Origin: Pohlia nutans
Lineage: Eukaryota; Streptophyta; Bryopsida; Bryales; Mniaceae
Direction of reading: 5' to 3'
Assembly: GCA_022496805.1 (NCBI GenBank)
Contig: CM040104.1
Coordinates: forward strand, 3,075,650-3,139,649
DNA: 64,000 nucleotides
The translations under genes were made by a program, and so were the position numbers. Shown piece after piece: positions 1,134-54,200 of the stretch (positions are counted from its first letter, which is position 1; each line of letters begins with the position of its first letter). The notes under the pieces were generated by a model that was not told the DNA's origin, did no database searches, and saw only the letters and a list, made by a program, of their open reading frames with translations.

Positions 1134-2176
1134 CTACATGTCGAGCAGGTGAATAGCCTGTTCAGTGTCGACGAGTGAGGCCGGGAATTGGCCGTTGGTA
1201 AGCCATGAAATAATTTTCTGTCTTAACCTTTTCTCATGAAATCCATTTGCGACCATAGTATGGATTAGAATATTTATCTCTTGCACCGCTGCTAGTGTGG
1301 TGTTTGAGATGTATAATATCGGTAACACCTGTGATATGATGATGTTATACGATTGTTTGACTGGCCGGTTGGACTGGAATTTGATGAATTGCGTGTACTC
1401 AAAGGGGAGTTCACGTCTCTTATCATACTTTTTCATGTCGAAGTACCCTGGATGTTCCTTGTCAAGATGAATCTGAAGATTCATGAAATTGGCTGCAACA
1501 CCCAATGCTGGGTTGTCTTGATCATAAGCCGTGATCTCCGGCTTAATCTCTAGAATGTGCAGTGGGTAAATCCAGTAAGGGTTACTCGATATCCTTGGTT
1601 GTGAAGGGCAAAGAAAATCCCGAGGGTTTTGTACATTGAACCAGCATAAGTCATCAATGTATCGAAAAGCATATTGAAACTTGGGCAGTAGATCTGTCCA
1701 GCCAAGCGAAGCAAGTCTCTGTATAAATTGGACTTCATATGTTAAAAGGTATATGTTGCACCAGATTGGTGAGCAAGAGAATCCCATAGGGATGCCTTTA
1801 ATTTGCCTCCATACTCTGTCTCCCAAAGTAATGAAGCAATGTGATATGAGCCATGCCTGTAATGCAACTAGACGTTCCTGTGGCATGGGGATCCAGTGAC
1901 CACTTTTAGGTTGGTTGGTATACCATTGGGCAGAAATTGGTGAGCCATCTGCAGCTATTTTGATCCATAAAGTGGTATGAGCTTTAGGATGCAATTTAGC
2001 TGCTTCGCGGTAAGCCTGGCGACTCACGAATTTCAATGCATCCAGTAAGTTGTCGTCGCCTTCCAGAGGTATTGGGGGGGAAAGTCTGCATAGTTGTCTG
2101 TGTCACAGATGGCTTGGGGAGTGATTGCTGGTACCGAATCTCTTGCTGCGGTTTGTTGCTTTGGGCATTGGCTCAT
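1134..2176 (-). pseudogene. Reverse transcriptase fragment of the GIPMG/YIDD (Penelope-like or related) type
   Basis: The continuous part (1134 to about 2104) encodes a reverse-transcriptase palm. Motif B reads GIPMGFSCSPIW, followed by an NIYLLTYE..F helix. Motif C reads FRYIDDLCWF, with the catalytic Asp pair intact. Downstream come the family-typical MNLQIHLD and YDKRRELPF stretches and a C-terminal thumb ending at a TAG. This family is widespread in animals, algae and some plants and resembles Penelope-like RTs; I cannot place it more exactly, and no GIY-YIG domain is visible. Upstream, a run of seven G (2074-2080; C on the coding strand) separates this frame from an open frame that starts at an ATG at 2176, so a one-base slip there probably breaks the protein. 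The N-terminal fingers are missing, so I read it as a truncated, decayed copy. Confidence 0.7.
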
Positions 2177-17784: not shown

Positions 17785-18618
17785 GAAATGTAGAGACAGT
17801 ATGAGCCGTTGCTAGTGAGCTGATGGGCGGATCTAACATCTGAGATGTTGTTGTGAACTCTTTGATCGGAAGGCATGTGGGTGATTCTGAACTTTCTTTT
17901 GGCCTGTAGACAGCAGATTGTTGGTTCAAGCGTTGGTTTGTGTAGATTCAGATCTGTGAATTGAAGTGCTAACCACTTTATATCTGATTTTGAGAAGCGG
18001 GTTGTGGGAGCAAAGTAGGTGCATGCTTTGTTATGTTGGATTCAGCCCCTCTAACATTTTATATTTTGAAGGACTGCTGCACATTCATAATAACAGATCT
18101 GGATCTCTCATACATCACCGTCTCGTACAAACACTCTCGCTCAATACAACAATTAGATCTGCACACCATTCCTCTCGTTTGCACATGATCCGCCCATTGC
18201 TGACCCCTTAAGCGTATTCTAGACCTTGCAACTTGAGCCTAGATAGATCTAGCAGTTTTAGTTCGCACCCCTCCAGATCGAGTAGTTCGAGCTACACCAA
18301 GGCCCCATCTCAGCACTTACAGCAGCAATCCAAGCGCCTGCATTTAGATCGGCACCAACGCCCAGCAGTGGCCAGAGCCCTAATTTCAAAAAATCAATTC
18401 CGAGGGAGTGGAGCAACGCCTAGTGCAGCAGCTCAGCACCATACCAGCAGATCGGCACCCAGCTCAGCACTGTGCAAACAGTCCAAATCCCAGCAGCGAG
18501 ATCGGCACCAAAGCCAGCTAACCAATACCCAAGTTCACTGCGGCCCTGAGATCCAGCTGTAGCAGCTAGAACCGCCTGCTAGCAAGCAGCCTGGAGCTGC
18601 GACAGCACCCACAAACAG

Positions 18619-18736
18619 GTAAGTCTTCTTACCTAAGCTCCTTCATTTGTTATCATCATATCCTCCCCGCTATCAATACTAATACCACCCTCCTTTTTTC
18701 CAATCATATTCCTGTTTTCTTCCATGTCTACCTTAG
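18619..18736 (+). other. Intron-like segment 1 in the LINE leader
   Basis: It starts at CAAACAG|GTAAGTC and ends at a pyrimidine-rich stretch followed by CTTAG. It is 118 bases long. A second segment with the same donor context lies exactly 360 bases downstream. Confidence 0.4.
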
Positions 18737-18978
18737 GTTAACTCTTTCAAAGCTGCCCAATAGCACTGGATCCACTAGCAACATTACCTGCCGGGTTCTC
18801 CAGAGCCAAATCAGCACCATCAACCCTAATAGGGTTCAGCACAGTAGAACTCCTCAAACCTCTCCCAGCGCTCACAAAACCTGGAACAATCGCAGTCCCC
18901 ATAAGCACACTTGCTTCATCATCCCGTGCCATAACTTCTCAGCACACAACTCGAAGCCGCATCATCACCAACAAACAG

Positions 18979-19096
18979 GTAAGTGCACTCATACTTACTC
19001 TCTTCCTTGTTGCAAACCTAACCCCCCTTGGCTTAGTAAATTTTTTTACTCTGGCTACATCAACCCAGTTTTAGAGCCTCACCAGTTGCATTGCAG
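18979..19096 (+). other. Intron-like segment 2 in the LINE leader
   Basis: Donor CAAACAG|GTAAGTG, acceptor GCATTGCAG, again 118 bases. The 13-base donor context ACAAACAGGTAAG is identical to that at 18611, suggesting an old 360-bp duplication whose remainder has diverged. Confidence 0.4.
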
Positions 19097-19298
19097 CTTA
19101 GACCTTCATGATTATTTCATCTGCATTGATACTAATAGCTCGGGCAATCACCTTAACTTCCGGTGTAGCAACAGTCTTGATGTCCTTGAGCAGGAGCAGT
19201 ACAGATGCAACTTCCAACCCTTTGTAAGCTCCCGTGTAGCCTGGTGCAGCCACAGCACCAAGAATCTGTCGCACTACAGCAAGGTTAGTATCAACAAG

Positions 19299-19452
19299 GT
19301 AAGCAAACCCATGCAGCAGGACCTTTGCTACGGCCCACAGACCCCCACACGTAAACCCGTAAAACCTCTAACCCTACTCTTTTGCAACTTGCACTTACTT
19401 CCTAACCCCCTTGCTCGCATTACTAGATCCCTGCATTGTAAGCTTTTTGCAG
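19299..19452 (+). other. Intron-like segment 3 in the LINE leader
   Basis: Donor CAACAAG|GTAAGC and acceptor GCTTTTTGCAG. The acceptor lies 17 bases before the ORF1 ATG at 19470. The segment is open in the ORF1 frame, so retention would not by itself break ORF1. Confidence 0.4.
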
Positions 19453-19469
19453 AGACCTCTAAGCCAAAG

Positions 19470-22049
19470 ATGGAGACACGTTTATCAGCTTGGACCCGCC
19501 CTACAGAGGAACGGCAAGCAACTGATATGGAAGTTGATTCCCCATCCGCCAATCTGAAGAGGCTACTTGAAGCCAAAGCAGCCAGAGAAGCTAACAACGA
19601 CAATGGCAAGAAAAACAAGAATAACACCAACTTGGCAAAGAAACCCACCATTATAGAAGAAGACACCATTATGGATGCAGGTGACATTGAATCCAGGAGT
19701 CACACGGCGGAACATACCCACATCGCCGAAAACAACAAGAGAGAACGTAGTCGGAAGGAAGCTGCCGACGAGGCAGCAGAGCCGCACACTCCCAGCAGCC
19801 GCGGCAAAGACCGAGAACAGAGGAGCCCCAACAAAACGGCAAGACGCATCGACCAGCACAGTAACCACATGTATAGTGACCGTGGCAGAAGCACGCAAAA
19901 GCCAGGAAGCGCCAGTGACCGTGGTAGGAGCGTTAGCAGACAGGTAACGAGCAGCATCAGAGACCGCAACCGGAGCGTGAGCAAGAGAGGGGCGAACAAC
20001 ACCGACAATCGCAGCAGGAGCGCAAACATGCGGGGAGCAGGTAATAACGGCGACCGCAATGGAGGCGATAACAACCACAAAACGACCAACAACGGCCACC
20101 GCAAAGATGACCTAAGCAAGCAAGGGACGGCCAACACCAACGCCAAAGGAGGAGGAGAAGACTACGGCACTCCCATCGGGCAACGCAACAGGTCGACGGT
20201 CGACGCGAACATGATGAGAGAAGGAAACAACAGCAGGGGCAAACCAGCGGGAGCGCAAGGTGAAGTCACAGCAGGCGGGGACTGGAGAACAAGCCGCACC
20301 GAAGGGAAAAGCCAGGCAGAAGAAGGAGAGTCTTCAAGGAACCAGAAGGAAAGGGAGATCACGCAAGGCAACGACAACGGTAATAAAGAACTGGAAGAGC
20401 AGGGCACACATCGGCATGGCAAACAAGGGCAGAGAGGAGACAATGCATACATCAAAGACTCAGACAGCTTGGAACAGGAACCCCCAAAACAAACAGAGTC
20501 TCTAAACTCTAAGCCTAAGCGCAAAAACGTGGCTATAGGTCCACGAAGCCCAAATTTTTGGATGGGATTTAAAACTATGGAAACACTATCCCGGGAAAGA
20601 GGAGAAGATGTCCTTTTCACGGATGAGTCACTTGAGGACATGATTACTAGGGGAATGTCCGCCATAGAGGCCGAAGAAGTTTGGGATGCAACCGTGGCCT
20701 TCCCACGTATTCCCCAAATTCTATACCCCATGATGAGAGAAGATGGGATTTTAGGCCAACATTACAACCTCACTCAAATCCCATTTGAGGTACCGGTTGA
20801 TCCTATCACCGGATTGGCATTGGACTTTCATGTAGAGGTGCACTTTGAAGTGCACATGGACAACCCCATTTTGCATGACACCGCCAAGGCCTTGATTACC
20901 CAAAGGCTAGCACGCATGGACATTCCATTGGGCACAAGCATCATAGACCCAATGGCGGTACTATGCTTTAGTACTAAGAGGGGCGGTCAAAGAGGTGTGT
21001 GGAACGGAGTTGTTAAACTCCATCTCCTTCACCCCGAGAAGGATGGCATTGACATGCTCAAGGGGTTACGTCCCTTCATCCTAAACCTAGACACACTCGA
21101 CGGAGATCCCACATATGTACTAGGGAAGGTTTGCAAGAGCTTCAATAGTGTTTCCAAAAACACTAATCTCTCCATAAAAATTAAAAGTGAAAATCTTGCA
21201 AACACCACCGCAAGTGAGCTTTTCCATGATGTTTTGAGGAATAGTTTCCTCAAAACACATGACTTTGAAATTCTTGATGTACAAAAAGGCACTCTTGAGA
21301 GCCATGCCTTCATTTTGGCACCAACCCCCAAGCAAGCGGAAAAAATCAGAATTTTCCACGTGGCCGCCAACCACGAAATTATCTTGCCTCAAAAATAAAT
21401 AAATTATGCTCCACGCATTACTCCCGAGGCTAGAGCAAAGAAGGATGCTTTAACATTGACTCTCTCTCATCTACCCATCTTGAAAACGGTGGTTGACACC
21501 ACCGAGGCCATCACCAAAACTATGAAGAGCAAAAATATAGCCTCCATTTGGTTTCATAGAGAGGTTGGAACAATGCACAATGGGAGTGCAAATGTGCAAT
21601 GCACAAACCCCATTGTGTATCGTTCATTCCTCAACAAAACGCATGTGATTGATGGCCAATATGTTGAGTTTGTACCGCATAGGAGGAGTTTAGGAGGATT
21701 GGAGCCACCTACAAAGGAGCAAATTGAAGCATGGGGCTTCAATGACATCAACACGGCTTTGGTAAATACCATTACAACCCTTGTTTCTTCAACACCCTCT
21801 ATCACCAAAGAGGATGTAATTTCAATCATGGAAGAAAGCAATAAAAACATGAGAGAAGAAAACAAAAAAATGAAAGAAGAAATGGAAATGACAATGGAGA
21901 AAAAAATGAAGGAAGACCGGCTCATCAACGACGCCAAGCATGAAGAATTACAAAACAAGATGGATTTTATTCAAGACACTCTCATGTTGGCACTCAACAC
22001 CCTTCAAGAAATGAAAGAAGCAAGACCAACCCTAAAAAACGTGGAGTGA
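19470..22049 (+). pseudogene. LINE ORF1 protein, interrupted by one in-frame stop
   Basis: I start at the ATG at 19470 (METRLSAW), because the open frame further upstream has no other good start and lies in the leader. The first ~300 residues are low complexity, with repeated DRGRSxS/DRNRSVSK-like RS-rich units that suggest RNA binding. A globular region follows (from GPRSPNFWMGFKTME), unknown to me, with GVVKLHLLHPEKDGIDMLKG-like stretches. A TAA at 21396-21398, inside AAAAATAAATAAAT, stops it after 642 residues. The same frame then continues for 216 codons into a charged coiled coil (about 21820-22000, EENKKMKEEMEMTMEKKMKE). ORF1 proteins of LINEs usually coat the RNA; that role is inferred from position and composition. 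Confidence 0.75.
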
Positions 22050-23386
22050 TTGTAGACCTCATAGTAGAATACATAGTATTTACTAGATACTACAGTACTA
22101 TTCTACTACATAGTATAGTATACTTAGTAGCCTACTCGTACAATACTACTTATTTATACAAAGTATATAGTATAAAATACCCTCAAAAAAAGACCAAAAA
22201 AATACAGATACCAATATGGTATCTATACACAAAGTATATATATTCAAAAAACATACCAAAAAATTAATAAAAAGGTATATACATATACCAAATACTAAAT
22301 ACAAATACATGTCTAGATACGGTACCTTTATACAAAGCATATATCCAAATAATATACCAAAAACAAAGTATAAAACAAAAAAACATACTTATATCAAATA
22401 TAATATACAAATACATTTCAATATACAAAAAACCATTATGCCCAACCAAAACAAAAACACAAAAATACAAAAAAATATATAAACACACCAAAAAATCACA
22501 AAAACTCAAATACTAAAACCCAAAAACACACAACTAATATGACAACATACATCACAAAAAATAAGAAAAACAATAATAAAAATACAAAATACAAAAATCA
22601 CATAAAATTAAAACACCACAAAAGGCCCAAAACATACCATTATAAAAAGCACAAAAACCACAACAAAAACCCAAAAATCACAAAAACATATATACCACAA
22701 AAACCAAAAAAAAATGTAAAACAAAATTTACATTAAAACACTAAAGTATAACTACTTACGGAAACACCAATATAAATCTGAAATACATACAAAAAAATAC
22801 CCTCAATAAAAACAATATAATATATAATTACCAAAAACCTTACATAACCACACCTCAAAACAAAAATAAGCTAAACACCCCAGACAACTTAAAACATAAA
22901 AAACCCTACAAAAAGAATAGAAGAAAAAAACAACAACAACAATGGACTCGGCCTACCGGCCTCGTCCAAAAACAAAAAAAAAAAAAAACAACAACAACAA
23001 CAAGAAACACAACCCAAACACACAAATCACACAAACCAAAACATACAAATCGCACAACAATGGAAGCTGTCCAAGAAACATAGAGAATACAAAATTAGGA
23101 TGCAAATAAAAACCACCCCACACCACAATAATCATACTCAACAAACATTTAACAAAACTAAACAAAATTCATAACAAAAAAAGGTATAATAAAACCACTG
23201 TACATCATAGACTCTAACAAATACATCATATATAATGTCCCATCAAAAAAACCCCAATCCCTCAACACACACAAAAACTTAACACAACACCTATACAAAA
23301 GAAAGAATTCAACAACCTCACCACTCAATATAATACTATACCCTTTTCATCTACATCCCACACTCATACACCAACACAACAAATTA
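22050..23386 (+). other. A-rich spacer between LINE ORF1 and ORF2
   Basis: About 1.3 kb with no long open frame. It starts with short palindromic TATAGTATA/AAAGTATATAG motifs and continues as A/C-rich sequence with many AAAAACA runs. The motif AC-AAAG-ATATA recurs (22160, 22222, 22336). It may be an internal leader for ORF2 translation, but nothing proves it. Confidence 0.5.
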
Positions 23387-26300
23387 ATGCGAAAGACACC
23401 ACAAAAAACACTCAAAACAAATATACACAGATTTAATATACCTCTTAGTAACAAAAAATACAACAAAACAAACACCTCACCTTTTGAAAAAGACATAATA
23501 CAAAACAAAAACATACAATTCTACCAATTATGTCAAAAAACATATAAAAACCACCTAAAACGGGCTCGACCTAGCGACCTCGCCCAAAACCAATCCGATA
23601 AAAAAGAAAAAAAGAAAAACAGAACTATCAAAAAACACAACAAATTACTTCCAAATACCACATATAAAAAACAAATATACACAACATACAAACACATCAA
23701 CATACACATCCAAGACAAAACAAAATCATACACAAGAAAAACAAAAATAAAAATAAAATCAAAACCCAAACCTAACAACAAAAATCATACGACTTTAAAG
23801 CCAAAACATACTAAAAGTAATTATAAAACCAAAAAAGAAAATATAATCCAAAAGTCTCCGTTGAAAAGAAACTTTCTACACCAAATACTTTTATTATGCG
23901 GAGACATTGAAACCAACCCAGGGCCTATGCCCAACTTATTAAAAACACACCCACCTACACATAAAAGAAGATGCAAAACATATTTTATACCATGCACAAT
24001 TAAACTACAACCAGAATACCAACACTTAGCAAAACAATTTTCACCCATCCTAAACAGAACACACCCAAACCATATGGAAGCTAATAATGACTACCCGCAT
24101 TTAACAAACTACATCAACCAAAATCAACATCATCCATCACCACGTATACTATACGCACTCATCACCACAATTAGCCCATCAAAAGAAACATGCGACCATC
24201 TCCTAATACAAATTCCAAACCCTGACTGGATAACAAAACTATTAGAAAAAATGTCCCAACTGGAAAACCTCCCTGAAAGACACATTCTAAATATACATCC
24301 ATACATACAATTTATAAACAATAACCAAAACCTAATAAACCCACCAAATACCATCCACAAAAAAGTTTACAACTTTATTCATCAACACAATGACTCTATA
24401 ACCCTCCAAACCATGATGGATAAATTTCCTTTTCTCCCTACCAACTTATTAGAAGAAACTTTAAAAATACATGAACCATTACACGAATATACTCATCCTC
24501 CACCACTTCCATACATACCCACAATACAACCACAAGAAATACATACAACAAATTATAATACGAGATTTATTACATGGAATGCCTCATCACTAAACACGGC
24601 CCTTCCAAACTTGCATAAACTAATTACCAACACACCTGATGAACCCGCTATCATCACAATACAAGAAACCAAAATAACAGCTACAAAATCTACCAAATAC
24701 ATACAAAACTTATTTCCAAAATACAAATTAATTTTTAACAATACACATGCTTTAACAAGATGTATGCAACAAAGAATACCATACATACCCGCAAGAGGTG
24801 GTCTTCTCACACTAATACATCAAAAATACGCATATCTTGGCAATATCACAAAAATCCCAACCCCCAAAGAAATATCACCTTATCTACAAATAATAAAAAT
24901 AGATAACAAACCACTACAAACTTGGCTAATTCTTCACATGTACATGCCGTCACATATAGAGGACATACAATATATACCAATGATCCAACAAAACATAATG
25001 CAACAAATCAATACACACCCAAATACCACACATATATTATGCGGTGACTTTAATAGAGATATAGCACTTATTGAACGACAAAATGAAACAGACACAACCC
25101 CACCACAAACAGAAGACATAGAATGGAGAACATTTACTAATAATCTTCAATATTAAAATACATCCCAACAGATTGCTCATACTCCAGACAAGGGGGACAA
25201 AACTATAACCAAACCAGCCTAATAGATGGTTACTACATTAAAACACCAGATAATACTCTATATACATCAACTACAGACAATGAACACAACCTTAATTCTG
25301 ACCACTCACCAGTAACATTATGCATACCACCAAACACCTTATTAGCAAGACCCATTCCAATAAAAAATAAAACAACGAGAATTCTAAACCCCATACCACA
25401 AGAAAATATTGAAAAATTCAAAATAGAATACTTTGAAGAAAATGCGCTGCAAATAAACGAACTCATCACAACATTATCAAATGGTCAATTAACAGACGAC
25501 CAATGGCAAGAATCATGTTCAAAACTAGATCACATGATACAAAAAATATCAGACAAAATTCAAGAAACTTGTAATGCACCACCGCTCCCGACATTAACAA
25601 ATTGTACTTCCCAACAAGGAGGCTTCTTACCAAGAAAACTACAAAAAGCATGGAAAAAACACCTGTCTACCTACCATTTAATTAGAAAAACAATCTACAT
25701 AACAAAAAATACACAAAATTGGCAAACACACCCAATTATCGAAGAATTAAAATCCCATACAAATGTAACCATCCCACCACTCCCAACCCAAGAACATAAT
25801 CAACAAGAATGGATCCAATCATTAGTAGAAATTGCCAAGACGGCAAAAATACAAGCTCGTAAAATCACCACAAAATATACCCAAAGTTGTATTAAAAAAG
25901 CAATACTAAAATACAGACAACTATATGACAAAAGTCCAAAAAAATAAAATAAATAAGTTTTCAAGAATCAAGAGACACCACCATTAGATTGCATATTAGA
26001 TAGAAACAACAACATACTAACCAATCCAGAAGACATAGCAAACGAAATACACATACAACAATCAATCAGCAACAGACCTACAGTACCTACATGCTACTAC
26101 CAACCCGAACACCCATCACAACGTACTTGTGGAGTTAAACAATACCCATGGCACGACCTTGATGGATTTGTAATAGAAAAAAGAGGAAACCCACAAATCC
26201 CACTACATAAACACTTTGACAAAGAAATATACGAAATGTGTCTCAAGCATCTATCTAACAACAAAACACCAGGCCCAGACAAAATCCCCAACTTAATACT

Positions 26301-28407
26301 AAAAAATATGCCTGAAAGCTTTCACAAACTACTCTTTTTATTTTTTACTCACTACTACAAACAAAAACAAATCCCAGCCTCATGGAAAATAAGTCTAACC
26401 ATACTACTTTATAAAAAAGGAAGTCCCACACAACTACCAAATTACAGACCAATAGCACTTGCAAACACAATATACAAATTCTTCACTAGTACACTAACAT
26501 ACATATTATCAGCATACGGTGAAAAATTCCAAATCCTACACGATAGCCAAGAAGGATTCAGAGCAGAAAGAAGTACAGCAAGACAATTACAACTCCTCAT
26601 AGCAGCACTAGAAGACGCAAAATTTACAAATCAAGACATATACCTACTATATATAGACTTCAAAAACGCATTTGACTCACTAGATCACGCAAGACTCTTA
26701 GCTATAATGAAAGACCTTGGATACCCAGTAGATGCAATAATGCTAGTTAGAAACATGTACTCCCACTCAAACACCATATTTACCGGAGAACACTTTGGCA
26801 AAACAAAATCAATACCGATTCAAAGAGGAACCATACAAGGAGACACACTTAGTCCATATCTCTTCATAATTTTTCTAGAACCACTCTTGAGATGGCTACA
26901 AAGAGGGGAAAATGGATACACATTTGGTACATCAAAAATAAAAATCAGTTCTGCAGCATACGCAGACGACCTAGCAGCGATATCAAATAATACAAAATCA
27001 CTACAAACACAATTAAATAAAATTGACAAATTCTGTGAATGGGCAGGCATGGACTTGGGAGTCACAAAATGTGCTGTCACGGGTTGCCCAAATAAAACCA
27101 AAATGCAACCAAACAAATTTAAAACCCACATGACAATCCAAAAAATCAGTTACAGAGACCAAACACTACCAGTACTACATCAAAATGAACCTTATGTTTA
27201 CTTAGGAATACAGCTGGTTCCATCACTAAAATGGAAGCTCCAAACACATATTACCACAACTAAAATAATAAACCAATGTAAACAACTATCAAAATGCCCT
27301 GCAACTATCAAACAAAGAATCAGTATGGTGGACAGAGTGATCAGAGCAGGCATAGCCTACAGCTTCTTTGCAGTCCCATACTCACTACCAACCATTAAAA
27401 AACTTGACAAGAAAATTATTGCAATCCAAAAAACAATATGCGGACTACCTAAAAGTACTACAAACATAATAACACAACTTCCTCATGATTTATTTGGACT
27501 AGAAGCCTTCTCTCTAAAAAATGCCTACCTTAGATGCATTGGTGAACAACTTCGAAATGCACTTAACGACAAAAGAAGACTAGGAATAATATATAAAGGA
27601 CTAATACAACACATACTTGCTAAAGCTGGTGGTGCCGAAGACATTCCAAGAATTAAACGCCAAGATTGCACTACATCACCGACAACACGGACATTATTCC
27701 TTCTGAAAACAGCAGGTGGTTTACATTTAAAAAGCACAGATGAAAACTTCCAACTTCATATGACCGAACTAGAACAAGAATGGCGATCTACAGCCATAAC
27801 CGAACTTCCACACTTAGACCCACAACTCTCCATTAAACTATTGTATAAATTAATGGCACACAATATTTACAAAATAAAACATATCACCCTTCCCAATGGC
27901 ACAAAACTAATGTCACCAGAAGAATTTAAAATATACTATCAAAATCCAACTAAATTAGAAAAAAGTGCACTAAGCATAGCAGAACAACTCTTCTGTGAAC
28001 CAAAATGTACCCAAGATTGCCCAAATACATGCCAAATACATTTACCACCCCGCACACTAAAAGAAAAATATAAAATATATGACCATAGAATAATACCAAG
28101 AACACCAATAAACCCCGTACAATTCCCTCAACCACACCAACCACACCAACCAACCCCACCACAAAACATAAAAAACGATCCCATAAGATTCCCCATTCGC
28201 ACAATATTAAACCACAAAACAATTACAACAAAAGACAAATATAAAATATCTAAAAAATACAACACATATTTATGCCAATGGATAGACTCAAACCACATAA
28301 CATACAAAAAATGGTTAGAACAACGCGAATTATTTCCATTAAAGGCCTTATTCGTTAAATTGAGACAAAATTGTCATTTTGAGACTTCAACCCTAAAACA
28401 ATTATAG
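23387..28407 (+). pseudogene. LINE ORF2: 2A peptide, APE endonuclease, reverse transcriptase, Cys cluster; frameshifted
   Basis: It starts at ATG 23387 with a very basic ~170-residue leader, then a 2A motif (ends 23926). The APE endonuclease covers about 24556-25350: TWNASSL, the catalytic Glu in QETKI, GGLL, CGDFNRD and, after a one-base shift at ~25150, DHSP. The RT follows: TPGPDK, NYRPIALAN, motif A DFKNAFD (26657), motif B GTIQGDTLSPYLF (26828) and motif C YADD (26959). A Cys/His cluster CEPKCTQDCPNTCQIH follows near 27990. Breaks: the frame changes near 25150, where TAA ends the first segment; two in-frame stops (25945 and 25954) lie in AAAAAAATAAAATAAATAAG; then the frame is open to TAG at 28405. 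All catalytic motifs that I can see are intact, so the inactivation is recent relative to the age of the fold. Confidence 0.9.
23894..23926 (+). other. 2A ribosome-skipping peptide near the start of ORF2
   Basis: The residues LLCGDIETNPGP match the 2A consensus D(V/I)ExNPGP. At such sites the ribosome skips the last Gly-Pro bond and releases the upstream leader. An ATG follows directly (23927). 2A sequences near the N terminus of ORF2 are known from several non-LTR clades; here it would separate the basic leader from the APE-RT protein. Confidence 0.9.
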
Positions 28408-28411
28408 TCAT

Positions 28412-28465
28412 TTATCGTCGAGTCGACGATAAGATGAGACTCTAACCTTTGGGCAATCAAAGGTT
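28412..28465 (+). promoter_or_regulatory. Double hairpin directly after the ORF2 stop
   Basis: Hairpin 1 is TTATCGTCG-AGT-CGACGATAA (28412-28432), a perfect 9-bp stem that starts five bases after the ORF2 stop. Hairpin 2 is AACCTTTG-GGCAAT-CAAAGGTT (28444-28465), 8 bp, followed by T-rich sequence. GATGAGACT lies between them. A similar arrangement recurs at 28534-28576. Confidence 0.7.
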
Positions 28466-28528
28466 TTTATATATATTAATATATTAAAGTCTTAAATTAC
28501 CGAATAGTCGCAAACCTCAACAGTTATA

Positions 28529-29644
28529 ATGGTTTATCCTCGAGTCGACGATAAAAATGAGACTGCGAAAAGTCTCAATATAACGAATATGGCCTTATTA
28601 AACCTACCAACAGTAATACACTATAATCTAAACTTACTTACAAAATACTACACAGATTATAAAAACAGACACTATCAAAATATCATAAATACACAATTTA
28701 CACCCGAGCAAAATAGAGACACAAGATACATCCCACCCCCAACAATAATCCCCTACATTAAAACATCCACAATTGAATGTAACCCAAAAAGGGACATAGA
28801 CACAAAAAAGTGCACCATTCAAACACAAAATGACAAAACCCACATATACAACGATACCGGTAAGTATATCACCACCATTCCGACTACAAGAATAAAATGG
28901 TTATGGCAACAATATAACAACAACAAATATAACATCCATAGACTAATATCTGCTATACAAGCATTTGAAACAGAAGTAGTTTGGCTATACCAAAGATATG
29001 AACACAAAAACAGCAAAAAAGGTTCAATAAAAACACCATACCATTCCAACTAATATTTTAGACACACTAATAACAACATTTAATATAACACACTCATATT
29101 TTTCCTCACCAATAACATGTTCCATGAAATCCACCCAATTCTACTCAACATTCGCTAGAGACAAAATTTTTGGCTCACTAAGGACAGCCTTTCAATTCAA
29201 ATGGAAAGGATTGGATATGCACACCCAAATGACGCCGAAACAGCACAACAAGCAATACATTGGGCAAGACTAGCAGCAAAACAAGACCCTGAAACTATCA
29301 CCATCTTAGCAATCCCAGACACCAACTGGTACCAAAATCTATCACCATACAACAGACCCTTTCCGGATACGCACGCCATCATACATTATGCCGCGGACAC
29401 CATTACATATGACGAACCAACAATACCACTAGAACCCAACAAAGTCATTACAGCTGGAGCCAGAGGAACCACACACGTCCCCTCAATGAAAGAACTAGAA
29501 ACAAAATTCAACATTTGCGAAACCTCCATAAAACACACATTCAAAGCAATAAATACCATTGCCATACAATATGCCGGATCTATCCTTTTACATAAAAGAC
29601 GTATAGAGAATAATCAAACAATACCAACAGACGTAGTACATTAA
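28529..29644 (+). pseudogene. LINE ORF3: PCIF1/CAPAM-like methyltransferase core fused to a restriction-like endonuclease tail
   Basis: Segments in three frame steps read as one protein: 28529-29050, then a +1 shift, 29031-29210 in the next frame, then back, 29210-29644. In order: a helical region (WLYQRYEH), THSYFSSPITC (near 29094), FYSTFARDKIFGS (to 29177), FQFKWKG, GYAHPND (29213-29233) and ETITILAIPDTNW. These line up in order and spacing with PCIF1 motifs ECFASPLN, CSAFPDTDGYFGS, GSF-ANPPF and LSFIVFIPEW, as I know that family (cap-adjacent N6-methyladenosine methylases). The catalytic NPPF position is HPND here, so activity is doubtful. From VITAGARGTTH (about 29446) onward the sequence matches the endonuclease protein of the LINE relative at 46183-46695. 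Start choice (28529 or 28589) is unsettled. The homology needs a profile search. Confidence 0.7.
28534..28576 (+). promoter_or_regulatory. Second double hairpin before ORF3
   Basis: TTATCCTCGAGTCGACGATAA (28534-28554) is the first hairpin of 28412 again, with one G-to-C change that spoils a pair. It is followed by AATGAGACT-GCGAAA-AGTCTC (6-bp stem, 28559-28576). It overlaps the first ATG of ORF3 (28529) and precedes a second ATG at 28589. Confidence 0.7.
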
Positions 29645-30136
29645 AAGTGAAGGGGTAGTGGTGAAAACCACTGCTAGTCACTCTTTCAAACAACTAGGTC
29701 AACTTGTCTCAGGGGATAGGAAGGGCCGGTTGGTTGGTACAAACTTTTCTGCCATAATAACTTACTAGCAGCACCAAGCCATGTATATCACACCACTGCT
29801 CAACGAGCCCAATTGGTTTCAAACTCGGACCACATAAATGTGATAAAACGCCCTTCACCAACCAAGCAAAGAACTCATGGCTTGGTGATAAAACTTAACT
29901 CTAAACATACCTTTATACAAACTAGCACTCAACCATCATTACTTTACTTTTATCCTTTGTTACTGTTACTGTTACTTTGTTTTGGTTACTATAGTGTCCA
30001 TCCTCGAAAGGGGAGAGTAGTATTGTTCCAATGTCCCTTTGACCGGTGGGCATCGGGTCATTGACATTACGAACGGACACTTTATTCACGCCGGCCCTTT
30101 TTATAGGGTCGGTGTTTCTATCTATCTATCTATCTA
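29645..30136 (+). other. LINE 3' region with conserved terminal stem-loop and TCTA tail
   Basis: About 490 bases that align along their length with 47705-48195 of the second copy. Shared blocks are GTAGTGGT..A.ACCACT, TTCTGCC/TTCCTGCC, CAGCACCAAGCCATG, AAAGGGGAGAGTAGT, GACATTACGAAC and GACACTTTATTCACGCCGG. The last block opens a stem-loop CCGGCCC-TTTTTATA-GGGTCGG (about 30090-30112) just before the (TCTA)n tail. Such 3' structures serve as RT recognition sites in other LINEs; here that is inference. Confidence 0.75.
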
Positions 30137-30453: not shown

Positions 30454-33400
30454 CTACCGTGCTCGGATCTCACTAAGCTGCACGGCAATGCCGCGATCGT
30501 CCGAACGGCCATGCCGGGGATTTCCAATCATCGCATGATATTGCGAGGACGAGCTGCCACCCTCCAAATCCTCCGAGACGCTGTCCAGGCTATTATCCAC
30601 TGAATTTTTCTGGGACCTCATGCCCGGCTTGTACGCGGGCTCACACTTGCCTTCGCCCAGCACCAGCACTTCCGACTCCGTGTCCCTCTGCAGGATGGAC
30701 ACAATGGGCGCCATGGACGGCCGCCTATCTGCTGCGTTCTGGATGCATAGCAGACACATGTTGATCACGCTTTGCACATCACGTACTTCCTCGTCCGTCA
30801 AGTGCAGCGTCGGGTCGACCAGGTCCAGTAATCTGTCTTGCTCGTGCAAGTTCCAGGCCTGCATCATAGATCACGATAGTATAAATTCAACATACATCAT
30901 CCTCCATACATACATACACTGATAGTTCTTACATACATCATACCGACATCATCCTCCATACATACATACACTGATAGTTCTTACATACATCATACCGACA
31001 TCATCCTCCATACATACATACACTGATAGTTCTTACATACATCATACCGACATCATCCTCCATACATACATACACTGATAGTTCTTACATACATCATACC
31101 GACATCATCCTCCATACATACATACATACACTGATAGTTCTTACATACATCATACCGACATCATCCTCCATGCATACATGACAGTGCTAACATACATGTA
31201 TCCACCATACATACATGTATACATGTATTCTCCATCAGGGTATCCATGCATACAAGTATACACTGATAGTTCTTACATACATCCTCCATGCATACATGAT
31301 GTGCTGTAGAGCATACATGATGTGCTGTATGGATGATGTCTGTAAAAACTCACATACATCATCCTGCATGCAGCACATCATGTATGCACTAACTATTCAT
31401 GTGAGTTCTAACATCATCATAATATACAGTTGACATGGAACTCCATAACCAACCAGCTCTGGAGCGCCCACAATATCAAGTTCAAGTTTCAACCTACAAC
31501 CTTTAAATTAGAAGCCGAATCTCAAGTTTCGATCTACAATGTGTGCTACTAGATCATACATTGTGTGCTACATTTGTTGTCTCTGCCCCACAAGGGAAGA
31601 GACCATGAAAATGCTTCATTTTCAGGAGTTACACGACTCAACACTAAAAATAAATCGTACAAGTAAATTTGGGGTAAATACTAAGACAGACTATTCGATT
31701 AGCCGCTTATTAGCAATGTGGGGAGTAACTCGAGCAATGATATAGCTTGTTATACCACATATAGGAACCGTAGTAATGTCATAGCTAATCCCTTAGCGTT
31801 GCAATCAAATGCAACCATCAATGTGTGATCCTAAGTCGAGTGAATATTCAATTTTCTGTTGATCAAAGGAGGAAAAGATTTATAGACCTCAAATCTATAT
31901 TGATCCTAGCTTTTGGAGACCACACTACTAAGGATCATACATTTTGCGCTATGTCAATTAGCATCATAAGGGAGTAACTAAAGTAACATTTAGACAAAAT
32001 GTTAAGCAACATTTAGGAACCATAATGTTGTTCTAGTTACTCCCCTAATGAAACATAGCTCAATCAATGTATGATTCTAGTAGTGTTAGTGCACTTGAAT
32101 ATAAAAAAAATGGGGGTTTGAAATACACCAATGTATATAATATGACCCATTTACTCTATGGATGCTCATAATTTTATCTCTAGAGTTATGCTGCATGAAA
32201 TGTCATTCTAAGACGTAAGAAGGTATTAGCTGTGCATTAGCTTTAATTCAACCTTGGGTGTTTTTTTAATTAAAGGACTTAGTGAGATTATGAGTGGAGA
32301 AGGGGATCATACCCATTTGGAGAGATAGACTTGGTCTTCAGCGTAAGACTCATCAATGTTTCGTCGACCACTGATGATCTCCAAACACAACACTCCAAAG
32401 CTGTAGACATCCACTTTGTCACTTAGTTGTCCAAGCAATGCATACTCCGGTGCTAAGTATCCTCTGCAAAATTGATCAAATACACAACGGTTAGCGAGGT
32501 TAATTGAAAGAATCTATCAAAGTTGACGAGCATAGGCAAATTCTTGTCACTTAGTGACTAGACAGTCAATCACGCGAACATATCTTCCACAATGAAACCT
32601 TAGAAATATGTTGGAAATATTATTAATATTCCATGAATATTCTAAAATATTTTAGAAATATCCTAGTTGTTCTTGATAAGTGATGGACAAGTGCTCGATG
32701 TTCGTGATGGACATGACATCCATTTGCCCATTCATCATCTATGAAAACCTTGTCTCAAATTAGGGACTACAACATACGTTTAAATGGACAACCTAATGAA
32801 TCTTGGAGCTAATTTCAAAAGAGATGGATATGGTGCTTACTTGGTTCCTGCAACATGAACAGTCATGATGTGAGTTTGTTCATCTGGGAATAACAATGCC
32901 AAACGGAAATCCGCAATCTTGGGGTCCATATTCTTGTCTAACAAAACATTGCTAGCTTTGATATCTCGATGGATGACTCTTGGGTGTGCCAATGCATGCA
33001 AATAATGCAAACCGCGAGCAATGCCCAAACAAATCTTCAGCCGCACAACCCAACTCACCACTTGCCTTCTTGATCCTGAAAATTGCACACAATATAATTC
33101 ACTAGATTCAAATATGATTGATCTAAAACAACCGGTATGCATGTCATTACATTGGACATTGTTACATGACACTAATCGAGAAATCACCACTTGTTGAATG
33201 TGGAATTAATGGATTGTGAAGACGAGGTAGATGAATTCCAAACATACCAAGTAGAATTTGGTCGACATCGTAGTTATCAACGTACTCATAAACCAACAAC
33301 CTTGAGGTCTCACGAAGGCAACATCCTTTTAGGTTCACCAAGTTTCTGTGCTTCATTCCAGTAATAAGAACAACTTCGTTTGAGAATTCATCAAGGCCTT

Positions 33401-46029: not shown

Positions 46030-46695
46030 AGTACTATTTGTTGTAATAGTCCATTTGAATGTGTCCCCCTTAAATGTAACCAACACCATATCCACGCCCT
46101 TCGAATTAAAAGACACAACAAAGCCGTTTGGGAACTTAGGTAACTAATATTATCATCACAAAAATCAAGATGCTACATCCTTATGAATGCATGCAAATAC
46201 AATAATAACCCACAAGAAAACACAGTACCCCAATGGCTCCTCCCATGCACATGTGGACCCCAAAGATGCCAATGTAATGCTAGATTTAAGCCCGACATTC
46301 TATGCATCCTTGGACTCCCATATCAAAATCCTTCACCACAACACCCAGACAATAACCTCACCATACAATTCATCGAATTCACATATTGCAACGATAGATT
46401 CCCGCAAGAGACCATTGACAATAAAACACACAAATACCAACCGCTAATAAATAATATTATCAACCAAGGATGGAATGTAAATCCACTCATTGTCATTACA
46501 GCCGGTGCCAGAGGAACAACACACACCCCCTCCATGAAACAATTAGAAATTAAACTAAAACTAACAGAAACCTCCATCAAACAAACATTCAAAAAAATTA
46601 ATGTCGTCGCCATTCAACATACTGCATTAATAATACTACATAAAAGAAAACTCGAAAACAATCAACCACTACCAATAAACTTAGACCCCCCCTAA
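46030..46695 (+). pseudogene. Zinc finger plus restriction-like (PD-(D/E)xK) endonuclease end of a LINE ORF
   Basis: One frame from 46030 to the stop at 46693, broken by TAA at 46141. It starts with a Cys/His cluster (TICCNSPFECVPLKC.QHHIH) followed by RHNKAVWEL, as in the region before the endonuclease of other LINEs. A second Cys cluster follows (CTCGPQRCQC), then KPDILCILG, FIEFTYCND, and later WNVNPLIVITAGARGTTHTP and a helical end with HKRKLENNQ. The KPD...E arrangement is that of the restriction-like endonuclease of R2/Dualen-type elements. The part from VITAGARGTTH on is closely similar to the end of ORF3 in the large LINE (29446-29644), but the part before it is not. Confidence 0.75.
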
Positions 46696-47704: not shown

Positions 47705-48195
47705 AAAAACCAACAATAGTGTAGTGGTAAAGACCACTATTATGTCACAGGTTAATAGGTCGTGGCTGGTTGGGTGACTCTAAACTTTCCTGCCTATGAT
47801 ATCTCACCAGCAGTACCAAGCCATGCACATTACACCTCTGCTCATACGAATTCTCCCCCTCAGAGAATCAAACCCGGACCAGATCAGAATAAGTTAAAGC
47901 CCCTCCTCCCACCCAACCACAGGCTCATGACTTGGTGTTCAACACAAAACTACCTAAGCTATCTATCCTACCAAACACCCAAAAACCAAAGGTAAGTCTC
48001 TCAAAACCCTATCCTCTGGTTTATGTTATTTATTGGTTACTGGTCACTAGAGTGTCTATTCCCGAAAGGGGAGAGTAGTTTTGTACTATTGTCCATCTGT
48101 CTAGTGGACATTGGGTCAATGACATTACGAACAGACACTTTATTCACGCCGGCCTTGCAAAACGACCGGAGTTTATATCTATCTATCCATTTGAA

Positions 48196-51218: not shown

Positions 51219-54200
51219 TCATAATGTCGGTGTCTGGTATACAGGCTCGAAAGTGAGGTCACCAACCAAGGCTTTCGTGACAAAATCTTCCACGCCCTCC
51301 AGTGTCAATGGACCCCTGTATAATGCCGACCTGCCTCTGCGAGGCTTGTAGGCCACCAAAACTGTGTCAACGCTGGAAAGGTCAACTGCCGAAAATGCTT
51401 TCATGAAGGTAGCCCGCTTGGCTGCATCCACCAGGCTGTATGACACTGGCTGTGATCCATGAGCTTTTCTAACAAACGACTTTTGCGAGATCTGCACCAA
51501 ACACATATAATTCAATTGGTTAGTCCAAACAGCACTTCTAAACGAGAGCCTCATCTTAAAAATAACAATGCCATTATGCCAATATTAAATTAATGTCAAT
51601 TTACAACGTCAACTTCATAGCTATCAATGTAATATTAAATCAACCTCAATGATGTGATGCTATTTTAATGTTGGTTCTGTAAAACTATATAAGTATGACA
51701 TCAGTCTAACATTGGCTTAACCCCTAAAGGATTCATGGTTTTAAAATACTAATTGATCATATTGTGAAAACATAAATCAGATGGGGTTAAATTTTATATC
51801 ACCAGAATCAATAACGAGCATTGTATTTGTTGGTCAAGAAATAACAAAAAATTGAACAAGAAGTCCACAAAACAAAGAGCTATGCTAAAACAAACATGAG
51901 GTCCGATTTGGGCTTCTTGGTCCTTTAGGGGTTAAGGTTGTTTGCTATGTTGAAACTAAGAGACAGTAAATGAACATGAGAATAGCATTAATCTACTGCC
52001 TCCTAATATTTGAGATGGGCTTGCCTCAATCACACAATTTTGGTCTACCGAGAATTTACAATGCCTGAAAGAAAGCCTTGTTAGAATGAACCTGTGGAAC
52101 ATGGTAAGGAAAACGAACCTCGTGGAGAATCTGCTTGGCTTTTCCCTCTCCTTTGCTGGATTTGGAGGTAGCAATGATACACAAGGATGAATCCGGTCCA
52201 CACACTTTCTTCATATTCTTTTGGGTCAAATAAGCAACAACAGGTTCAGAATCTCTTTTGGTTCTTTCTAAATCGCGGTCCTTCTTTTCGAGCTTCTCCA
52301 AAAAGGTTCTCAAAGCTCCAACAGAGTTTTTATCAAATATGATGTTCTCTAAGTGAAGCTGCTCTCCAGTAGAGAGTAGTCCCACGACCGTTGGAAATTG
52401 GCTTGCTCCAAGCTTCTTAGCGATAGGATCCTCCTCGGTATTGACGGTCTGCACGAATTCAACTTTGCAACTTAGCATCAACGATACTGATGCTCAAAGC
52501 TGCTAACAATAAAGGCCAAATGTTACCAAGACACAAAATTCCTATCAGGATATCATATTACGAATGAGATTCGATTCAGAAACAAGAGATCTGAAGCTCA
52601 AACCAAAAATGGTGCTGGCAATCGTAGCATGATTACTTCAGAGTATTCCTTGAGATCAATCCATTAAGGTAGAGAACGAAAAGCACAGAATTTTCTTACT
52701 CGGTACTCATAACAGTCAATCCGGTTCTCAAATTCTCCACATATGGCAAGCCATGCAACTGGTAAGTCCTTGGTCTTTCTGACCAAAATAGCCCACGGTC
52801 GCTCCTGATCCTTCGACATAGCTTCCATAAAGTTTTGGTGAGTGAGAGAAGTTACTAGAGGAGAGAACTGTTGGTTGTAGAAGTTTAACAAAGCTTTGGT
52901 TGTCCAATCTCCAACGTGTGCCACTGGTTTCGACTTTCCTTCCGCTTTGAAGGGATACATCAGGAGCTTGGGAAATAGTTGAACCTCTTGCTCTTTACAA
53001 AATTTACCCTGGCTTTCGCAGTCAATAGCACCGACCTGGACCAACTGTCTGTTAATAGACATAATAAGATCCAGACTCATGTTCATAAGATTATGATGAA
53101 TCAAAAATAGATAACAGATGCACAAAGCCAACAAAGCTCGGAATGCACCACAGAAAACTTATTTCATGAAGAGGCATGGCAAAGACTGGTATTAATCTCA
53201 CCTTGAGAATTCCCTTCATTTCTTCGGCAAAAGATGCCAGGACCTTCAGACGGTCATTGATTCCCGGGTAATCTGGCACAAAATATAGGACAGCCCAAGA
53301 GATTTTACTTGTCCCCAACACCTGTGTTTTGAATTTTTTAGGGGTTAAATTTTCAATCCCTTGGGGCAAATCCACAGCCTTATGGCTCTTCGCTTTAGGC
53401 TCTCCACTTCCTCCCTCTTTGGGCTCTGTGAAGGAGCTAAAAAGATTATCAAACATCCCACCCCCAAAGTTTCCAAAGTTCCCAAAACCATAGCCAGGGT
53501 TCCCTTCCTCCTCATTTCCAGTGAACTTGTTGTACATGTTTCGAGCCCAACCCGTTTGTCCTTCTCCAGATTGTTTCCTTTTAGAATTAGACTGCCTAGA
53601 CTGTCTTGATTGAGAATTGCCAAAAAACTGTGAAAATCCACCCTCTCCAGCCTGTTGGTTAGGACCGCCAAACGTGAAGGTAAATGTTCGACCACCCTGC
53701 CCACCGGCTTGTTGGAAAAAAGGACCACCGCTTTGAAACTGTTGCCCTGCATATTGTCCACCGAAATTCCCGCCTCCATATCCACCCTGGGATCCTCCGA
53801 ATCCCTGACCCTTTTCATCACCAGTCAAATCGTACTGCTTTCTCTTCTCTGCATCCGAAAGTACTTCATATGCTGCACCACAAATAAACTTACATGAGCG
53901 AATAATACAAAATGTGCAAATATATAAATGTATGATAATTGCATGCGCACTTATCACACAGCTGTCTCTACAAAACCGCATACCTGAATAATAACATTTA
54001 CAAACCAATTTCGTTATAATCTCAAACTCTAGAGCTAAAAATGAACGAGAAAACGTAAACGAAAACCCTAAACCCTAAGTCCTTGGACGACCGGATGAGT
54101 TAGAAATCATACCGTGACTAATTTCCTCGAACTTTGATTGGGCGTTCTTTGCTTTGTTTTTGTCAGGATGAAACTTCAACGATTGTCTGTTCCAAAAAAC

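Follow-up and report, generated by a model that had tools for sequence, protein, structure and literature searches.

Introduction

The Dualen/RandI non-long terminal repeat (non-LTR) retrotransposons of green algae were reportedly described by Kojima and Fujiwara in 2005, and Dualen carries a cysteine protease domain. PCIF1, also called CAPAM, writes N6,2'-O-dimethyladenosine (m6Am) next to the mRNA cap; its N-terminal WW domain binds the RNA polymerase II tail, its helical domain completes the m7G-cap pocket, and the roles of m6Am and of PCIF1 are still debated. The Dualen/RandI plan combines an apurinic/apyrimidinic-type endonuclease (APE), a restriction-like endonuclease (RLE) and RNase H in one long interspersed nuclear element (LINE) (PMC4640811), and was reported from green algae (PMC3747384, PMC8226300). 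Dinoflagellate and charophyte retrotransposons with cytosine methyltransferases (PMC5890265) likewise carry a nucleic-acid methyltransferase-type domain, which is unrelated to the one reported here. We analysed a stretch of 64,000 nucleotides from Pohlia nutans (GenBank assembly GCA_022496805.1, contig CM040104.1, positions 3,075,650 to 3,139,649, forward strand), referred to as the window. It contains a LINE, a non-LTR retrotransposon, whose architecture resembles that of Dualen/RandI and whose polyprotein carries a PCIF1-like methyltransferase-fold domain. A first-pass annotation of the window had placed this domain in a third open reading frame (ORF) of the LINE and proposed that the element had captured it.

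The architecture resembles the known Dualen/RandI plan; the PCIF1-like domain within it appears to be new, as far as the accessible literature shows. No report of a PCIF1-type domain in a retrotransposon was found in the accessible parts of the literature searched, a coverage that ended short of Repbase. The domain is a regular component of these LINEs, fills the long stretch between reverse transcriptase (RT) and RNase H, and is unmentioned in the accessible descriptions of the group.

Architecture of the polyprotein

Twenty-seven distinct copies of the LINE were read, from 20 matches with long open frames, fetched with 10 kb each, and eight shorter loci, one of which (L008) is identical with L011. 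The window copy shares 85–94% DNA identity with six other copies over long aligned pieces. In the 2,460-residue polyprotein of copy L010, Pfam identified an endonuclease (Exo_endo_phos/Exo_endo_phos_2 at residues 338–585, with Exo_endo_phos_2 at 457–585 scoring 29.7 bits against a cut-off of 27.4), followed by RT (RVT_1, 954–1217, E 1.5e-26), PCIF1_WW (1709–1801, E 2.4e-11) and RNase H (RNase_H, 1991–2113, E 2.5e-13). The C-terminus contains a CCHC-like cluster and an RLE-like tail, with RH, PD, E, D and K invariant in eight aligned tails.

The APE, RT and RNase H are points of likeness to Dualen/RandI, and the CCHC-like cluster and RLE-like tail may be further ones. Relatives of the element occur in Haematococcus lacustris and Parachlorella kessleri, and the simple-repeat 3' tail is shared with RandI families, in which it consists of (ATT)n or (CTATTT)n (PMC3747384). 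The element of the window differs from the accessible descriptions of that group in its PCIF1-like domain. It also differs in its protease content, as Pfam detected no cysteine protease in the polyprotein of L010 or in the ORF1 pieces of the window. By their precomputed labels, related proteins (P0121–P0240) list Josephin (PF02099), PHD (PF00628) and, in one, OTU (PF02338), and these LINEs may thus collect ubiquitin- and chromatin-related domains.

Identity of the PCIF1-like domain

In the window, an N-terminal stretch and the PCIF1-like domain occupy positions 28597–29443 (+) and align to approximately residues 1593–1876 of the L010 polyprotein. The core starts at about 28965; its frame shifts by one base near 29050 and again near 29210, and a deletion truncates it. 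The strings FSSPITC, FYSTFARDKIFGS, FKWKG, GYAHPND and ETITILAIPDTNW, on which the first-pass annotation had based its assignment, are encoded at approximately 29100–29330 in two frames. When compared with Pfam PCIF1_WW (PF12237; cut-off 31.1 bits), the 60-residue piece at 29040–29219 alone scored 30.4 bits (E 3.4e-7), slightly below the cut-off, and the piece at 29210–29641 alone had no Pfam match. Read through jointly, the open pieces of the window reached 37.9 bits (E 1.7e-9). The L010 polyprotein scored 44 bits and four other copies 48.9–60.6 bits. A search of the genome (697.8 Mb, 332 contigs) with PCIF1_WW returned 1,183 candidates; all 150 that were scored lay above the cut-off, the best at 61.2 bits.

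A structure model of the domain has the PCIF1-type methyltransferase fold. Both profile and structure comparisons put PCIF1 ahead of other methyltransferases by wide margins, and the motifs are co-linear with PCIF1 throughout the core when aligned to 6irv and 6irx. The proposed PCIF1/CAPAM-like identity is accordingly upheld by profile and by fold. In comparison with PCIF1/CAPAM (human 6irv/6irw, zebrafish 6irx–6is0), the LINE domain has HPND or HPHN in place of NPPF, sits fused within a retrotransposon polyprotein, is unmatched to the part before residue ~417, and is without a detected WW domain, no WW family appearing when the 2,460-residue polyprotein was compared with Pfam at E up to 1. 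The PCIF1_WW proteins of giant viruses (Pithovirus, Bodo saltans virus, Tetraselmis virus 1 and Cafeteria roenbergensis virus) are alike in predicted structure (Foldseek 1e-10 to 1e-5); those proteins are viral, whereas the present domain belongs to a retroelement.

Spread among related LINEs

Two protein sets were examined: the best 120 of 218 proteins returned by a family profile (E up to 1) and the best 120 of 162 returned by an RT query. The former were mostly metagenome-type proteins with PCIF1_WW, some of them with RNase_H. Many of the latter exceeded 2,000 residues, and a good part had PCIF1_WW and RNase H labelled in one chain. Haematococcus lacustris and Parachlorella kessleri were the named hosts among the RT matches listed, and their proteins were without a PCIF1_WW label. 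P0170 (with PCIF1_WW) and P0224 came from eukprot and are, by their names, transcriptome entries. P0017 and P0112, in records labelled Candidatus Nitrosocosmicus, were taken for contamination.

A second profile, A2, built from 37 rows (5 copies from the genome itself, 17 of the proteins returned and 15 of the 42 slices made), detected the domain in 104 of the 120 listed RT relatives, the Haematococcus proteins included. In every relative in which both RT and RNase H were detected (91/91), the PCIF1-like domain lay between them. The 16 relatives without the domain were likewise without a detected RNase H, and the endonuclease preceded RT in all 28 of the 120 in which the endonuclease query was detected. 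Given its presence in 104 of 120 relatives and its constant position, these LINEs carry the domain as a regular component. Its acquisition therefore looks old, and a recent capture by this element finds no support.

Selection on the domain

Pairwise dN/dS (the ratio of nonsynonymous to synonymous substitution rates) was calculated by the Nei–Gojobori method and restricted to stop-free pieces with 90% coverage. For the methyltransferase core, 20 of the 27 copies were used; the seven short loci cannot hold the endonuclease or most of RT. Among pairs with dS >0.3, the core had a dN/dS of 0.136 (20 copies), compared with 0.096 for RT (17), 0.110 for the C-terminus (11), 0.124 for RNase H (25) and 0.127 for the endonuclease (14). 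Values were 0.172 for the post-RT part (15 copies), 0.212 for the linker after the core (24) and 0.256 for the N-region (24). Purifying selection acts on the core at a strength similar to that seen for the endonuclease and RNase H, and the flanking stretches are less constrained. The examination of further copies, as the first-pass annotation had advised, thus found the domain present and selected.

The catalytic motif

HPND stands at positions 29222–29233 (+) of the window, at the place of the catalytic NPPF of PCIF1 in the alignment to 6irv and 6irx. This replacement, correctly read in the first pass, is a property of the family and not of the window copy alone: HP was found in 25 of the 27 genome copies, HT in L025, HS in L018 and NPPF in none. 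In the window's family, the change of NPPF to H-P-x-x is accompanied by altered neighbouring motifs, SPLN and LPxW.

Among 105 domain rows of the RT relatives, the NPPF place read NPEY in 16, HP in 16, NPP[NG] in 2, another xP in 20, something else in 47 and a gap in 4. Forty-one of the 47 read N[VI]PA[DE], mainly from Haematococcus; these rows may be one column off, with NPPF absent either way. The 16 NPEY rows kept SPLN in 14 and SPMN in 2, with [LYIF]P.[WF] at the LPxW place. In 122 rows of near relatives, the NPPF place held HP in 96, HL or HR in 9, YP or FP in 4 and a gap in 13. At the SPLN place of these rows SPVT (58) and SPIT (18) dominated, and the tryptophan place was longer. Of the D..FGS motif, D was kept in 110 and FG in 111 of the 122. 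In A2, the D, F and G of D..FG were invariant and S-P and the P of the catalytic motif nearly so; in alignment A1, the H of HP was invariant.

An RT tree was built from 81 rows, thinned from 125 by removing most of the near-identical Haematococcus rows; it is unrooted and drawn at the midpoint. The window's family (9 rows, support 100/100) grouped with the NPEY protein P0121 (96/80) and with five other NPEY proteins (97/84). On this tree, HP requires a minimum of 8 changes. Since NPPF is the motif of PCIF1, the simplest view is that the ancestral site read N-P-x-aromatic and changed several times.

Function of the domain

The reading that we favour, at a probability of roughly 0.6, is a single, old uptake of a PCIF1-type domain, with methylation lost and binding retained in the window's family. 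The ancestor of these LINEs would have acquired a PCIF1-type enzyme in one distant event. In the family of the window, this domain would have stopped methylating adenine N6 and would persist in the retrotransposition complex as a module that binds nucleic acid, most probably holding the RNA of the element, perhaps by its 5' end, beside the active sites of RT and RNase H. The first-pass annotation had voiced a suspicion of binding rather than catalysis; in this family, where NPPF is lost, binding is the likelier of the two. The NPEY relatives may be active as methyltransferases.

Several points weigh against this reading or its supports. TM-scores to PCIF1 were moderate, at 0.50–0.56 by the model. 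The structural match begins at human PCIF1 residue 417, with model residues before 73 unaligned, and because the preceding part of PCIF1 is unmatched, cap recognition is unsupported. Honey bees are without m6Am even though their motif changes just from F to Y (PMC9479742), so that the motif alone does not settle activity, and His for Asn might support another chemistry. In closer pairs (dS 0.03–0.3), the dN/dS of the core was 0.197, compared with 0.166 for the endonuclease, 0.152 for RNase H and 0.116 for RT; the copies came from the top of the PCIF1 scores, and 20 were picked because their open frames were long, a choice that may lower dN/dS somewhat. Profile A2 was built partly from 15 of the same 104 proteins that it was used to count. 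Of the 8 PDB matches of the RLE-like tail, 5 were R2 C-termini, co-linear but weak (E 0.044–1). Finally, the Dualen/RandI label is drawn from architecture, the RT tree holding the family's own copies, unnamed proteins and those of Haematococcus and Parachlorella.

Active adenine-N6 methylation by the domain in the window's family as well is, in our judgement, unlikely; it would then mark the element's own RNA (at the cap-adjacent adenosine) or its cDNA, with His in the place of Asn. The fold is that of the enzyme, selection is near that on the other enzymatic domains, the HP pair is well conserved in the near rows, as are D and FG of D..FGS, and the NPEY relatives look nearer to a working site. 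Against this, three motif places are altered together. In human PCIF1, changing N553 and F556 (NPPF to APPA or SPPG) is the usual route to an inactive enzyme (PMC10544176), and in flies a lone F to H in the motif accompanies the absence of m6Am (PMC9479742).

We give similarly low credence to the proposal that the domain is a mere structural spacer, without a nucleic-acid ligand, that positions RNase H relative to RT. Such a role would agree with the fixed place between the two domains in 91 of 91 relatives and with a catalytic motif that varies between tree branches, HP alone requiring the changes counted above. It sits poorly with the conservation in A2 and A1, where residues expected near a ligand are kept beyond what core packing would ask: D, F and G, the S-P pair, the motif P and the H of HP.

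Chance or convergent likeness of a Rossmann fold to PCIF1 is very improbable. A profile of the closest copies alone reached PCIF1 in the PDB merely at 0.0062, and a first model, built from 21 close copies, was worthless (predicted local distance difference test (pLDDT) 36.6); chance was nonetheless rejected in view of the profile and structure comparisons that single out PCIF1 and of the co-linear motifs.

Beyond the favoured reading of a retained binding module, a wider picture is possible, which we hold tentatively and consider doubtful as a whole. Throughout a clade of green-lineage LINEs, the retrotransposition enzyme would routinely include a cap-end adenosine methyltransferase that belongs to the element. 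In the NPEY lineages it would methylate the RNA 5' end, or the cDNA/RNA hybrid, while these are held by RT and RNase H; in several others, that of the window included, it would have become an RNA-end-binding cofactor. A LINE group in which a PCIF1-type domain is fixed and its fold selected, with a changing catalytic motif, separates the role of the fold from that of methylation, and natural NPEY and HP versions are available for comparison.

The apparent third open reading frame

That the domain forms a separate third ORF, newly captured by this single element, has next to no chance of being correct: the window frame 28508–29053 does begin after a stop, but L009–L012 carry open frames of 2,428–2,660 residues, intact copies read through as one polyprotein, the gap in the window is an insertion, and the domain is common to related LINEs. 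What had been annotated as ORF3 is a domain of the endonuclease–RT–RNase H polyprotein, between RT and RNase H. The annotated interval, 28529–29644, does hold the PCIF1-like part; its first 68 bases (28529–28596) belong to an inserted element with terminal inverted repeats (TIRs), and its last ~200 bases (29444–29641) encode the end of that polyprotein, which a deletion has brought next to the domain.

The DNA of the window aligns to six copies (L010, L011, L021, L022, L023 and L026) until 28338–28343 and resumes at 28599–28600, at the same point of the copies. The intervening 255 bp (28342–28596), absent from all six, are bounded by inverted arms of 25 nucleotides at 28342–28366 and 28572–28596, which are 92% alike, with ATTA on both sides. 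This segment is a small inserted TIR element, and it splits the polyprotein, which explains the apparent gap between ORF2 and ORF3. Inner palindromes (TTATCGTCGAGTCGACGATAA) are present within it.

A 1,554-bp in-frame deletion has its junction at 29443–29444, between imperfect direct repeats. It took away RNase H, the last part of the PCIF1-like domain and most of the C-terminus, with the frame kept. The corresponding sequence was present in all nine copies measured, where its size was 1,551–1,555 bp. When 40 of 1,257 candidate genome matches were scored, the window alone matched the whole junction. The other 39 aligned from base 20 at 93%, like undeleted copies, and an amplified deletion variant was rejected on these 40 matches. 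A spliced intron was ruled out as the origin of the gap, its ends not being GT-AG.

Other features of the window

The window copy of the LINE is dead. Its ORF1-like region lies at 20456–21953 (+), within stop-to-stop frames at 18570–22049 and with an in-frame stop at 21396–21398. The DNA of this region is 71–75% similar to sequence upstream of the polyprotein in L023, L026 and L011; no such match was found in L010, L021 or L022, and the Pfam scan gave no family above cut-off. In the neighbouring interval 22001–24000 the strand skew of the element is strong (GC skew -0.57, AT skew +0.49, GC 28%), with a C/A-rich coding strand.

A 2A-like motif, DIETNPGP, was read by pattern at the head of the polyprotein (23903–23926, +), where it would break the peptide chain. 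The pattern D.E.NPGP was found in five of the six copies scanned (L010, L011, L022, L023 and L026), and the scan found none in L021; L010, L022 and L026 have 2–3 such motifs each, upstream of the endonuclease. By reading frame, the APE and the following part of the polyprotein occupy 24560–25947 (+), with frame breaks near 25150 and 25947. RT and the post-RT part follow at 25957–28341 (+), as placed by reading frame, DNA alignment and the RT tree, in which the window sequence falls among copies of its own family. From 23825 to 28343 the window is 90% identical to L010 in DNA alignment.

Downstream of the deletion junction, 29444–29641 (+) encode the last ~66 residues of the polyprotein, the end of the R2-like C-terminus, with near-identical ends in L010, L012, L014, L015, L016 and others. 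By copy alignment, the 3' untranslated region (UTR) spans 29645–30136 (+) and closes with a hairpin (from 30089) and a (CTAT)n tail. This region aligned in all 20 long copies (L009–L028) and in a second fragment within the window. The exact hairpin string was found in five of eight copies, and the (CTAT)n tail was present in all five and in the window. Directly downstream of the LINE, at 30881–31196, lies a tandem array with units of ~52 bp.

The second fragment, at 46144–46692 (+), is a decayed part of the polyprotein C-terminus of the same LINE family. It had no Pfam match of its own in the scan, and its 3' UTR is retained only in pieces (47782–47849 and 48010–48187). Elsewhere in the window, a 322-residue frame at 1134–2102 (-) contains the strings GIPMGFSCSP and YRYIDD and has a weak RVT_1 match (E 0.0082, below the cut-off); we assume that it is possibly a Penelope-like or other reverse transcriptase. 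At 52664–54074 (-) there are exons of a host gene of the DnaJ/thioredoxin type, for which ten homologues were found.
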